Below, piece by piece: positions 11,974 through 50,538 of a DNA stretch of 64,000 nucleotides. Origin of the DNA: Sulfurovum lithotrophicum. Its GTDB lineage: Bacteria > Campylobacterota > Campylobacteria > Campylobacterales > Sulfurovaceae. The notes beneath the pieces were generated by a model. It was given only the letters and a program-made list of their open reading frames with translations, was not told where the DNA came from and searched no databases. The stretch spans positions 1,302,001-1,366,000 of the forward strand of contig NZ_CP011308.1 in the NCBI RefSeq assembly GCF_000987835.1, read 5' to 3'. The translations under genes were made by a program, and so were the position numbers. Position 1 is the stretch's first letter; every line of letters starts with the position of its first letter.

Positions 11974-11985
11974 AAGTATCCTAAT

Positions 11986-12007
11986 TAATTAACTGGTTAG
12001 TTAATTA
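11986..12007. promoter_or_regulatory. TetR-type operator
   Basis: Two perfect 9-bp arms, TAATTAACT and AGTTAATTA, separated by GGTT, 13 bp before the tetR start. The right arm overlaps a minus-strand -10 hexamer TATAAT (plus 12004-12009). Size and location fit a TetR dimer repressing its own five-gene operon. Confidence 0.7.
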
Positions 12008-12220
12008 TAACAGATAAAGCTTCAACTTTATATTAAAATGGGGGAATTTTGTATGATTCATTACGTAAGGCCAATATAGTCAAAAGGATTATACTGTTTG
12101 AGGACAGTAAGTTTAGAATTAATAGTCAGGAACCAATTTATCACAGATAGAATAAATGCTCTCATTCATCACTTTTGATTCTCGGATGGATCGGGAACAA
12201 ACCCGATACATCTGCCAATT

Positions 12221-12808
12221 TTACCTTATTCGGCAAGCACTGTAACCTGCATTCCAACCATGTCTATAAGTTCTATAGTTGTTAAAAAGATTATAGTCTT
12301 TTTTGATGCCACGATGCCTTCTTGACCAGCATCCATCACTGTATCCTCTTTGATAATAGTTATGTGCAGGATGTCTTCTGCATTCTTTGTAACCTGCATT
12401 CCAACCGTTTCTGTAACTTCTGCGATTATTATAGAGACGTCTATTTTTTCTCGTACCAGGATGTCTTCTTGACCAACAGCCGTCATTATATCCTGTTTGG
12501 TACAAGTTTTGACTATAATGTCTTCTACATCTATTATAGCCGGCATTCCAACCATTTCTGTAACTATAACTGTTTCGATAAAGATAACGGTCCTTTCGCC
12601 ATGTACCGCGTTTAGAGCTGCATCCGTCGCGAACCCCCCGTCTGTAATTTGCATCTCTGTTAATACCATAGTTGTAACCATCATAATAATATGGATCCCC
12701 AATAGCAACCTTCTGGACAACCAAGGCTTCCCCATATGGTGCACACCCCGTAAAACTGAATGCAGCTACTAATGCAGCTACAAAAATCATTACTTTTGAA
12801 ATTTTCAT
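12221..12808 (-). CDS. Lipoprotein with three Cys/Trp/Tyr-rich tandem repeats
   Basis: 195 aa. The signal peptide ends in a lipobox (FSFTGC, Cys21). Then come three repeats of about 46 residues, each with the core YxxGYxDGCxSRR and later YRNGWNAGYxxCRR; the clearest copies start near residues 54, 101 and 149. Each repeat has two cysteines and many Arg, Tyr and Trp. I do not recognise the family. The protein should be anchored in the outer or inner membrane facing the periplasm; the basic, aromatic repeats could bind polyanions or peptidoglycan (speculation). The ribosome site AAAGGAG precedes the ATG, and a perfect inverted repeat lies just upstream. Confidence 0.75.
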   Translation of the reverse strand: MKISKVMIFVAALVAAFSFTGCAPYGEALVVQKVAIGDPYYYDGYNYGINRDANYRRGVRDGCSSKRGTWRKDRYLYRNSYSYRNGWNAGYNRCRRHYSQNLYQTGYNDGCWSRRHPGTRKNRRLYNNRRSYRNGWNAGYKECRRHPAHNYYQRGYSDGCWSRRHRGIKKDYNLFNNYRTYRHGWNAGYSACRIR

Positions 12809-12820
12809 TTATACTCCTTT

Positions 12821-12847
12821 GCTATAATTAAAATTATTAATTATAGC
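12821..12847. promoter_or_regulatory. Perfect inverted repeat before the repeat lipoprotein
   Basis: Arms GCTATAATTAA and TTAATTATAGC (11 bp, perfect) with a 5-bp spacer, 13 bp upstream of the lipoprotein ATG. Each arm contains a TATAAT-like sequence, so the repeat overlaps any promoter here. It could be an operator or simply an AT-rich promoter core. Confidence 0.45.
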
Positions 12848-13106
12848 ACTTTAGTAACAGAAGTGTCAATTTGATAAAATCCCAAATCCGTAAATAGCTC
12901 TCAAGTACATTAATTCCAGAATGAAAGAATAAACGATTTCACAATTTTATTCATCATAAAATGAGATTGCTTATTTCATTGTGTAAGAAGGTATCCTATC
13001 GCTGAAGGATACTGTGTATTTTTTACTAATAATGCTGTTTTTCAGGCACTATTCTAGTGTTTTAAGTTTGTGTCAAATTGATATTTTTTGGAACATTATA
13101 TGCGTA
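12848..13106. other. Non-coding stretch, probably holding the distal end of the IS1380 relic
   Basis: AT-rich. I see no open frame with a ribosome site and no clear terminal inverted repeat. By position it should contain the end of the IS1380 element whose transposase stops at 13107, but I cannot place the boundary. Confidence 0.4.
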
Positions 13107-14259
13107 TCATTCCAGGGAAGCCTTATATATACGCTCCCTTATAGCATGAAATATTTCTACAAATTCTTCTTGAACTTTGAGTATGATCTGCCTGCTGTGC
13201 CTCACAACCTTTCCTGCTAAACGATAAAACTTATAGCGTACCGTGGCAACCGTATGTTTTTGCCAACTATTTTGCAGCATTTGTTTAAAAAGGATAAAAA
13301 GATTGTATGCCAATACACCTATCTGAAAGTAAAATGCATTGGAGATAAAATTTGATGAAGGAAGATAATTGAGATTGAAACCATTTTTAAGTTCTTTGAT
13401 CCGGTTCTCGCTTGTATCTCCACGTTTACGATAGAATCTAACAACCTCTTGTGCGGACATACTTTCATCTGCATTGGTAGCGATAACATGATAATGTTCT
13501 CTGGCAAGATCAAGTTTTTCGTCTATACTCAACATATCCCAGATCTCCGGAAGTACCGGTGTCACTGTCTTCTTAACAACAATCAGTCTAAAGGCATGGT
13601 CTGTGTGCTGCATGGTATGTATAAACTCAGCTACTTCTTCTTTAAGGTGATGTGCTGTACCTTCTTTGGTTTGGAATGATTGCCACTCTTTAATTTCTTT
13701 GATATTGGCGTAGACGGAATGATCTAAGTTGGCGCCCACGGTATAGGAGATATGATGATTATTGCAGTGGTTAAAAAGTTCAGCCTGATAAGAAGCAGAA
13801 TCTGCTCTAAAAAAAGAGAGTGATTTTGCTTTGGGTAATTGTTCCAGACATCTTTTTAGAAACGTCAGATTATTATCTGCGGGCGCAATATTGCCTGAAC
13901 GAAATTCACTGTGGACCACATATCCACCATTGATATGTCCTATCATGGGTGTATAGCCACTTTGCATTTTATAAGTTGTCACTGCTGTACTTTTTTGTGA
14001 AAATATCACCGAAGCATCAATATCAAGTACCAAAGGCTCATCTATCGTTTTTAAATGTCTTTGCAGTAACTTACGATTAATAGACTCAATTCCATAGATA
14101 CCATGTAGTCCGTGACGTGTGATCCATTTTCCTACACTCTCTGATACAGGTATACGTTTAATCTTCAACGTCTCTTTGATGGCTTTATCTTTATGAATCA
14201 TACGTAAGTCATCCAGAACCCTTCCTCCGCTATGAAGCATCAGCAGTAATGGTTCTATA
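13107..14259 (-). pseudogene. IS1380-family transposase, 5' end removed at the IS21 junction
   Basis: The frame encodes about 380 residues of a DDE transposase of the IS1380 type: the entry block LHSGGRVLDDLR, catalytic-region text VLDIDASVIFS, FFRADSASYQAELF, and the C-terminal RKRGDTSENRIKELK block. Family members are about 420-450 aa. Coding similarity continues upstream of the first ATG (14240) as IEPLLL up to base 14259, where IS21 sequence begins. The N-terminus is therefore lost and the gene is a relic. The missing part is not found on the far side of IS21. Confidence 0.8.
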
Positions 14260-14343
14260 TGTCAACCGCGGAGTTAAATTAGGCAGTTTTTCGTGAGTTT
14301 TTTTCACGAAATGTAACCTCAAGCAACACGTGTATTTTTAGTC

Positions 14344-15141
14344 TTATTTTTTACTCTTTTTAGGTTCAAATTCGTAAAGATCAGAACCATTCATTTCTTC
14401 CTCCTTTTTTTCTTTTAATCGATAAGAATCTCCAAGTATATTTATCACATGAGAATGATGTAAAAGTCTGTCTAAAATAGCAGTAGTCACGACTTTGTCA
14501 TTGGCGAATATGCCACTCCATTGAGAGAAGACCAAATTGGAAGTTACAATGGTTGAACCTCTTTCATATCTTCGGGAGATTACCTGAAAGAAATGATGGG
14601 CATCTTCTTTGCTCATAGGGAAATAGCCTATCTCGTCAATGACCAGCAGTGCCGGTGCCAGGACTGCCTGTCTAAGAAAGGCATCATACCGCTTCTCTTT
14701 TTTAGCCTGGCTCATTTGCATGATCAGGTCGCTTGCCGTTACAAACCGTGCTTTGATACGCTTCTGAACAGCTTGATATGCCAGTGCTATCGCCAGGTGT
14801 GTCTTGCCGACACCGGACTGCCCCAGCAGGATAATATTCTCTTTTCTTTTTACGAATTCCATCGAGGAGAGTTCTTCTATCTGTCTTCTATTGACGCCTA
14901 CAGTAAAGTCGAAGTCAAACTGTTCGAGTGTCTTGATCGTAGGGAAACCTGCCATCTTTGTAAGTGTTGCCTTGCTTCTCTCAGCCTTACCCTCAGCTTC
15001 ACTCTTCAGTGCTTCGTAGAGGTATTCACTGTATTTCCAGTTCTCTTTGGCAGCACGGTTGCTCAGTTCATGGTAGGCATTAGCAAGCGAGGGAAGCTGT
15101 AGTTCTTTGCATAAGAGCACTATCTGTTCATTTACTGCCAT
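14344..15141 (-). CDS. istB: IS21 helper ATPase IstB
   Basis: 265 aa, the standard IstB length. AAA+ ATPase with Walker A GQSGVGKTH (residues near 108), Walker B LLVIDEIGYFP and the sensor region TSNLVFSQW. IstB assembles on target DNA and recruits and stimulates IstA. Its start overlaps the istA stop by 10 bp, as in other IS21 elements. No damage is visible. Confidence 0.92.
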   Translation of the reverse strand: MAVNEQIVLLCKELQLPSLANAYHELSNRAAKENWKYSEYLYEALKSEAEGKAERSKATLTKMAGFPTIKTLEQFDFDFTVGVNRRQIEELSSMEFVKRKENIILLGQSGVGKTHLAIALAYQAVQKRIKARFVTASDLIMQMSQAKKEKRYDAFLRQAVLAPALLVIDEIGYFPMSKEDAHHFFQVISRRYERGSTIVTSNLVFSQWSGIFANDKVVTTAILDRLLHHSHVINILGDSYRLKEKKEEEMNGSDLYEFEPKKSKK

Positions 15142-16238
15142 GCCACACCTCCGGTGATCATGCTGTAGGTAAGCAGATAGGCAACAGCTGCAGGAATGAA
15201 CTCGTCATAGCTTTGGAGATCACGTTGTGGGATATGCACGCGTTGTTTCACTTGTGTTTTATGGGCTTGTGTTATACTTCTACTTGTAGCTTTTAACAGG
15301 TGGATACCAAGATAAGGCTTCGGTACGGGAAGCAGCTGCAACTGCTCCTGTGCAAGTAATTCAAACGGCTTTTGCAGGGTAGTCTGATGTATTCTCGCAT
15401 TTGCACTGTAATCAAGCCAGTCCATCACTTCGGCATTGGCATTCTCTTTGGTCATCTTATATCCCATCATCGACAAACGCACTTTAAAAGCATTATGGAA
15501 ACTGTAACGCAGATAGTGATTGAAACGTTCCACTTTTCCTTTGGTCTGTGCCCTATAGGGCTTACATACCTTTAGATCCATCCCGCAGTGCTTGGCAAAG
15601 TCGCGGAATTGTTCATTGAACTTATGCTTTCCTCGTCCGTAGGCATTTCGCTTGATGATCACGGTCTTCATGTTGTCACACAGCCCTTCTGTCGGTACAC
15701 CGCCAAAGTAATTGAAGGCATTCATATGGCATTGAATCCATGTTTCTACTTTCTCATCCGTGACATATTCTACATACGAAGCCCTGGAATATCCCATGGT
15801 CGCAACAAAGGCAGAGAGCCCGTCTTTAGGGAATTCTACCCAGTCCACCTGCATTTGATGACCGGGATCGGTCTCAAAGCGTATGCGAAACTCATCTTCT
15901 TTAACACGTTCTCTTAGATTATGTTTCTGCATGATCTCCTGCATCCATCGAAGAGAACCCGTGTAGCCCATCTTTTTTATCTCGTCATAAATGGATGTGG
16001 AAGGGATATGTATATCCAGTTCATGGGCTTTCTCCAGCATACTGGCTATATGGGGAAGGTAGGCATCCACTGTCGTTCCCGGTGCTACTCTTTTTATTGC
16101 TGGGACATGTCCCTCCGGCAGTTTGGCATACTTTGAAACAGTATCCCGGCTCAAGCCAAGTTTGCGTGCAATGGCACTTTTACTCAACCCCTCTTTTATC
16201 ATCTTGTGGATCATTTTTACTTCACCTTTTTTAAGCAT
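15132..16238 (-). CDS. istA: IS21 transposase IstA
   Basis: 368 aa. N-terminal helix-turn-helix (MIKEGLSKSAIARKLGLSRD), then the RNase-H-like integrase core with Asp in QVDWVEFP, Asp in GLCDNMKTV and Glu in AQTKGKVERFNHYLR (DDE triad). It ends by overlapping istB. It is a little short for IstA (commonly 390-500 aa), mainly at the C-terminus, but all catalytic residues are present, so the element may still be active. Confidence 0.9.
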   Translation of the reverse strand: MLKKGEVKMIHKMIKEGLSKSAIARKLGLSRDTVSKYAKLPEGHVPAIKRVAPGTTVDAYLPHIASMLEKAHELDIHIPSTSIYDEIKKMGYTGSLRWMQEIMQKHNLRERVKEDEFRIRFETDPGHQMQVDWVEFPKDGLSAFVATMGYSRASYVEYVTDEKVETWIQCHMNAFNYFGGVPTEGLCDNMKTVIIKRNAYGRGKHKFNEQFRDFAKHCGMDLKVCKPYRAQTKGKVERFNHYLRYSFHNAFKVRLSMMGYKMTKENANAEVMDWLDYSANARIHQTTLQKPFELLAQEQLQLLPVPKPYLGIHLLKATSRSITQAHKTQVKQRVHIPQRDLQSYDEFIPAAVAYLLTYSMITGGVAWQ

Positions 16239-50467: not shown

Positions 50468-50538
50468 GCATAACCCCAAAAAATTTTGTAATTGTATCCA
50501 TTTTTCAATACAATTACAAAAAAGAAGAGGAATAAGAG

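Follow-up and report, generated by a model that had tools for sequence, protein, structure and literature searches.

Small exported modules that bind peptidoglycan, such as LysM and PG_binding_1, occur singly or in tandem and are sometimes encoded near cell-wall enzymes, and small exported lipoproteins with disulfides often act as inhibitors or shields. In E. coli, the residue that follows the lipid-anchored cysteine, aspartate or not, decides the membrane in which a lipoprotein is placed. Two further described families touch on the protein considered here, the LprI lysozyme inhibitors (PF07007) and the Alvin_2107 family of sulfur-globule oxidation (NF049856); Alvin_2107 is named in a figure legend in the accessible part of PMC8269255, and it is not mentioned in the accessible parts of PMC11267869 and PMC10386293.

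The window, by which is meant the whole stretch of 64,000 nucleotides analysed, belongs to the one-contig genome (2,217,891 bases) of the sea-vent bacterium Sulfurovum lithotrophicum, a sulfur oxidiser according to the accessible part of PMC5588614. A gene on its minus strand encodes a putative lipoprotein built of three copies of one small module. Like LysM and PG_binding_1, the modules of this family are small, exported, single or tandem and sometimes encoded near cell-wall enzymes, but they match neither in sequence or fold, the predicted unit being helical and furnished with a conserved pair of cysteines. The same genome holds two further module genes. One of them, L003 (105 residues, adjoining rpmA, the neighbour assigned by eye), exemplifies the single-module lipoproteins, which share with the window protein the lipobox, a YYYxGxxFG hairpin segment and the G..DGC...Y..GW..G...C module but have one module against its three. 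The other, L002 (391 residues; G000:C1:85819-86406, locus L002 1432-2607), is likewise tandem, with four modules at 50-residue spacing of which units 2 and 3 are identical in 129 of 129 nucleotides, yet it differs in having a signal peptide without a lipobox (by eye) and an extra C-terminal stretch. That stretch, of about 150 residues, has no Pfam match above cut-off.

The gene and its product

The first-pass annotation had described a lipoprotein with three Cys/Trp repeats, and this description holds: the open reading frame begins with a lipobox-type signal (FTG before C22, by eye, so that lipidation itself is predicted) and continues into three tandem modules with two cysteines each (Table 1). 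Similar lipobox N-termini are found in the relatives L004, L045, L071 and L175. Each module follows the pattern G..DGC, 19-20 residues, Y..GW..G...C, and a Tyr-rich hairpin segment, YYYDGYNYGIN, common to many single-module relatives, precedes the first. The modules are spaced by 48 and 49 residues rather than the 46 first reported, with a period of 147 nucleotides for copies 2 and 3. The core of module 1 is one residue shorter than the other two and reads YRRGVRDGCSSKR, and the consensus given earlier therefore fits copies 2 and 3 best. Identity amounts to 28 of 44 residues between modules 2 and 3, and to 24 and 21 of 44 between module 1 and modules 2 and 3, respectively. Our family definition, an exported protein with G..[DH][GA]C, 19-20 residues and Y..GW..G...C, describes the window protein in three copies. 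The module profile A2 (18 rows, one of which is module 1 of the window) picks out each copy separately, at E 3.7e-25, 2.2e-8 and 8.7e-8, so that the array is not a product of chance.

Table 1. Positions of the features of the three-module lipoprotein gene in the window
Feature	Position	Strand	Remarks
Sigma-70 promoter TTGACA-18-TATAAT	12840..12869	minus	12 of 12 consensus positions; TG before the -10 box
Inverted repeat, 29 bp	12820..12848		perfect 12-nt arms 12820-12831 and 12837-12848; 5-nt spacer
Likely ribosome-binding site AAGGAG	12814..12819	minus	upstream of ATG; by eye
Three-module lipoprotein precursor gene	12221..12808	minus	195 aa, ATG start at 12808; from the ORF, paralogues and orthologues
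Signal peptide with lipobox, MKISKVMIFVAALVAAFSFTG/C	12743..12808	minus	residues 1-22, predicted lipid anchor Cys22; by eye
Module 1 core GC...GW..G...C	12527..12625	minus	residues 62-94
Module 2 core GCWSRRH...GWNAGYKEC	12380..12481	minus	residues 110-143
Module 3 core GCWSRRH...GWNAGYSAC	12233..12334	minus	residues 159-192

The product would be a lipid-anchored periplasmic protein, probably of the outer membrane, since alanine and not aspartate follows Cys22 and the E. coli rule would then place it there. Its mature part (174 residues from C22) has seven cysteines, the anchor and six in the modules, a pI of 10.2, 30 arginines and 25 tyrosines. Such a composition, in what is by sequence an exported lipoprotein with amplified tandem units, could belong to a basic, Tyr-rich array that takes no part in cross-linking the wall. 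It would bind to surfaces or to anionic polymers of the envelope or the extracellular space, with LPS, polysaccharide or mineral as the target, and would help the cell to attach or its envelope to stay stable. This is a possibility to be taken seriously, if a rather unlikely one, as the relatives are mostly less basic, with a median pI of 8.6 among 100 single-module mature proteins; nine of these reach 9.5, and 27 fall under 7, so that strong positive charge is not a trait of the family. It also leaves unexplained the linkage to L,D-transpeptidases described below.

Predicted fold and the cysteine pair

The annotation had proposed small disulfide-closed units and structure prediction of one of them as a check. 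With the first unit and 94 aligned units, AlphaFold2 returned a confident and compact model (pLDDT 92.1, pTM 0.78) in which a short hairpin is predicted to be followed by three helices, at 17-30, 38-43 and 45-57. The full-length prediction from 15 rows (pLDDT 78.6, pTM 0.38) has the helix triplet three times. Both cysteines are present in 199 of the 204 units found by profile in the fetched loci, with a gap at one of them in four units and loss of the first in one; among 81 units outside the loci fetched by pattern, 79 have both and two have a gap there, counts that are not wholly free of bias in that the profile itself contains the cysteines. A DsbA-family protein is found above cut-off in the source genome. 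Export signal, paired conservation, DsbA-family protein and compact predicted unit together make an intramodular disulfide likely, from the DGC cysteine to the cysteine after GW..G, and the proposal of disulfide-closed units gains support accordingly from these same lines.

The near-absolute conservation of both cysteines would equally suit a thiol-redox or metal-binding sensor in which the pair forms a reversible switch or a metal site. The module alignments contain one nearly invariant aspartate but no invariant histidine or third cysteine, and the oxidising periplasm would favour a structural disulfide; a sensor is thus quite improbable.

Searches for known relatives

The annotation had further held that the repeat family is uncharacterised, a view that a match of the repeat to a known domain would have overturned. 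No such match emerged: none of the four collections searched, Pfam, NCBIfam, PHROGs and the PDB, yielded a convincing relative. In Pfam the window protein has a single match, to ETRAMP at E 0.12, on its signal peptide, and the 94 units taken one by one give weak matches only (Glu2-Pro for five, best E 0.0084; other families one each). NCBIfam has no match to the window protein, the PDB none by sequence to the window protein or by profile to any of the 94 units. Foldseek against the PDB finds no relative for the unit, a second comparison with one chain gave none at Z 2, and the whole protein has a single Foldseek match at E 9.8. With no fold match in the PDB, a binding function cannot be read from the structure. 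PHROGs matches to the window protein are at E 0.033 or worse; the paralogue L002 has one at E 2.2e-7, but no stretch of it passes on its own. DUF2799 (PF10973) was set aside, having no match in the window protein or, even at E up to 10, in the genome, as was a mobile origin, there being no match in phage or plasmid collections and none confirmed in viral contigs.

Taken singly, 27 of the 94 units match NF049856 at E up to 1, the best at 0.0021, and in an organism that oxidises sulfur this raises the idea of an accessory protein of sulfur oxidation related to the Alvin_2107 family. The idea is very improbable. The best match is 11.5 bits in the window and 14.4 in the genome against a curated cut-off of 60, and six of 14 control genomes match at the same loose threshold. 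Profile comparison aligned 17 columns with seven members, at a probability of 40 and without a whole-profile alignment, and what the two have in common is the Y..GW..GY helix motif; by eye, the members (28 of 30 loci) are short, with the motif order reversed and with neither an export signal nor a module-type cysteine pair. Membership of NF049856 was therefore rejected.

LprI shares with the module a local W...R..C motif and export, without any profile relation. LprI as a relative was rejected as well: a 13-column match to one sequence disappeared when 12 sequences were used (probability 0.9%; the set comprised 11 of 16 loci plus one sequence, five loci with cut flanks being left out), and the window protein has no Pfam match to it. 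The family nonetheless bears on a further reading, in which the module would block a lytic enzyme, such as a lysozyme of host, rival or phage origin, or modulate a neighbouring transpeptidase. An inhibitor or shield of this sort would be in keeping with the habits of small exported disulfide lipoproteins, and an LprI-family gene does lie within one of the clusters described below (L277), but the negative LprI comparison and the lack of matches in the phage, plasmid and viral material argue against it, and we regard it as unlikely.

Distribution and copy number

Searching with the repeat as a profile, the other check that had been suggested, shows the module to be a real family, present in genomes of the phylum and in Betaproteobacteria; its spread is wide but patchy. 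Profile A2 at E 1e-4 matches 26 of 397 phylum genomes, in seven of 68 genera, and 24 of these 26 belong to the Sulfurovaceae, the family of the window. Module genes are matched in 34 of 60 relatives. A DNA pattern for the module finds at least 118 stretches in a collection of 84,980 species, in Sulfurovum, Nitratifractor, their relatives and Betaproteobacteria; among the 80 matches listed, 53 titles are campylobacterotal and 27 betaproteobacterial or unspecified proteobacterial. Within the class of one betaproteobacterium found by pattern, six of 339 genomes match, including that genome itself, and at least three of the other five have a longer spacing. Sixteen betaproteobacterial units and 43 campylobacterotal units (the latter not fetched by pattern, the sets split by locus) match as profiles over 45 columns at a probability of 98.9, a score raised by the fixed pattern positions of the betaproteobacterial units, which were chosen by pattern. 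The lipobox expression fits 108 of 153 distinct ORFs of the family. Two observations stand beside these. At L052-L054 the gene next after one with two modules encodes a shortened module, with about 15 residues from Cys to Tyr, so that the spacing can shrink; and the two-module relative at L006 1423-1851 (G023), which has no visible signal peptide and for which one match reported a stop, is either a broken gene or an assembly error.

Copy number, for which the annotation had suggested a comparison of strains, varies between species. Counted by a regular expression, which may overlook units, the 153 distinct ORFs have one module in 134 cases, two in 14, three in two and four in three. The closest relative of the window gene, L004 (G016), has four modules against its three; two modules each are present in L044, L045, L071 and L175, at least two in L005, which lies at a contig end, and four in L056, where one pair is identical over 132 nucleotides. 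In a unit tree of 112 rows and 46 columns, with 45 of 109 inner branches open and used only to place first and later modules, the modules of the window fall in two places, module 1 among first modules from other arrays and the remaining two among later ones. Most simply, the arrays would go back to a protein of two modules, the second of which multiplied in some species.

Promoter and inverted repeat

Judged by its sequence, the promoter is an ordinary sigma-70 one of strong appearance, and it is conserved along with the gene: L004 keeps the TTGACACTTCTGT...AGTGCTATAAT hexamers and much of the spacer. With as many as three mismatches allowed, the promoter string occurs once in the genome. What had been annotated as a perfect inverted repeat of 27 bp is longer and interrupted (Table 1); it covers the -10 box and stops just short of the ribosome-binding site. 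Chance would seldom produce such a repeat in this A/T-rich stretch: when the 298 nucleotides upstream were shuffled by dinucleotide 3000 times, arms of at least 12 with a spacer of up to 10 arose in 6 shuffles. The dedicated control that had been read into this repeat is nevertheless unsupported: the repeat shares the -10 box with a promoter of perfect consensus, its upstream arm would by position lie outside the transcript made from there, and in the closest orthologue, L004, that promoter is retained without a perfect repeat. Against this stands a looser inverted match in L004 at another spacing, GAGTGCTA...TAGTACTC (by eye), so that the repeat may act as a local operator. Conservation lends that role no support, and the mechanism favoured here would give the repeat no necessary part. 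An RNA hairpin at the 5' end is made unlikely by where the promoter lies. Elsewhere in the window, perfect inverted repeats occur at 50484, 54964 and 59671, their arms 12-14 bp long.

Genomic setting

The window gene is flanked by a TetR/RND cluster (by eye) on one side and by two insertion sequences on the other. The latter, at 13107-16238 directly upstream of the gene, comprise a DDE_Tnp_1_4 transposase and an IS21-like pair (the pair recognised by eye), with an rve domain in the larger ORF of the pair. On the cluster side a palindromic stretch at 11980-12012, with TTAACTAACCAGTTAA on the strand of the TetR-type gene and lying before that gene (by eye), is perhaps the operator of the TetR-type gene. 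In G016 the module gene sits between an asparaginase-like gene and a gene for a lipoprotein of 115 residues, with queC following (by eye); G023 has these neighbours too, with the module gene after the lipoprotein gene, and in G020 the module ORF adjoins queC at a contig end. In the window genome fabI, the asparaginase-like gene and the small lipoprotein gene lie together without a module gene, about 70 kb away. Promoter and gene align to G016 as one block of 634 columns at 72% whose first position lies 1 nt beyond the -35 box on the upstream side (L275 3872 = window 12870), and the alignment suggests that gene and promoter moved away from the shared site as a unit. The small lipoprotein, a neighbour of the module gene in both G016 and G023, belongs to a family of its own (YHRMALDTPE..AWFK.LMYRLWD.QIT; L004 2498-2845, L274 3025-3462) that occurs in 18 of the 37 genomes searched and has no Pfam match.

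L,D-transpeptidase neighbours and a proposed role of the module

Single-module genes sort into groups by synteny; among 118 contig loci, rplU/rpmA/obgE are neighbours in 28 or 29, a NifU-like gene (Pfam NifU) in 16 and a YkuD gene in 15 (motif scan). In the reverse direction, a YkuD L,D-transpeptidase (L119, above the Pfam cut-off) was searched for in 60 relatives, and the matches were divided into classes by identity and partly also by their neighbours. Nine genes closest to L119, at 60% identity or more, form the first class; eight of them directly adjoin a module lipoprotein, and the remaining one sits at the end of a contig. In the second class (mostly 53-58%) a module gene lies within 2.3 kb in eight of eight places, as paired from coordinates with two short G005 fragments left out, and one member, G024, reaches into the range of the third class, its pieces being at 49 and 53%. 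This third class (45-52%) has no module ORF in the 1.5-kb flanks of the 20 loci examined; in several of its genomes the obgE-side module gene is about 16-21 kb off on the same contig. At L277 (G012) and L278 (G007), both of the second class, a module lipoprotein, a 700-residue L,D-transpeptidase and a small L,D-transpeptidase follow one another on one strand. The 700-residue ORF has the transpeptidase motif in both genomes, and in L277 its YkuD, Scaffold and PG_binding_1 domains all score above the Pfam cut-offs; next in the L277 cluster comes an LprI protein. Single-module gene and L,D-transpeptidase are thus apparently an operon in some relatives, within a comparison that covers related genomes and in which adjoining genes may be co-inherited without working together.

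The window gene itself has no L,D-transpeptidase neighbour, and in its genome neither of the two L,D-transpeptidase matches is near any of the three module genes. The sub-branches linked to transpeptidases consist of single-module proteins that lie apart from the window modules in the unit tree, with weak support (55/81), and other module genes have plainly unrelated neighbours (ribosomal protein/obgE, NifU-like, dnaE and spoT, partly by eye). For the window gene, the link to the cell wall is a hint carried over by analogy from the gene neighbours of its relatives.

A cell-wall role is still the most likely, as the linkage is the only specific functional signal found in the family. The sequence is tentatively read, at somewhat less than even likelihood, as encoding a chain of helical modules, lipid-anchored and probably locked by disulfides, that would bind at the cell wall or act there as an adaptor. 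In the mature part one small helical module would be repeated like three beads on a string, with a disulfide probably closing each bead. The module would be a candidate adaptor or binder of peptidoglycan or another wall polymer and would in some relatives work with L,D-transpeptidases. Several modules on one anchor would raise avidity, the number of modules setting its degree, and the strong positive charge and the Tyr and Trp content would suit the binding of an anionic or glycan polymer. A bolder version is possible, though unlikely to hold in full: that the module is a new and unnamed wall-recognition or transpeptidase-adaptor domain of Campylobacterota and Betaproteobacteria with a disulfide-locked helical fold of its own, that tandem amplification in Sulfurovaceae tunes its avidity, and that some lineages place it in one operon with a large Scaffold/PG-binding and a small L,D-transpeptidase.

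An open-licence literature search on cell-wall cross-linking L,D-transpeptidases and Sulfurovum found nothing. The module described here adds to the exported bacterial repeat modules an unnamed one with a confidently predicted fold, and its tandem arrays, which include DNA-identical units in two of the compared proteins, offer a natural example of how module number evolves. The linkage to particular L,D-transpeptidases in some Sulfurovum-like bacteria offers a handle on cell-wall cross-linking in this group.
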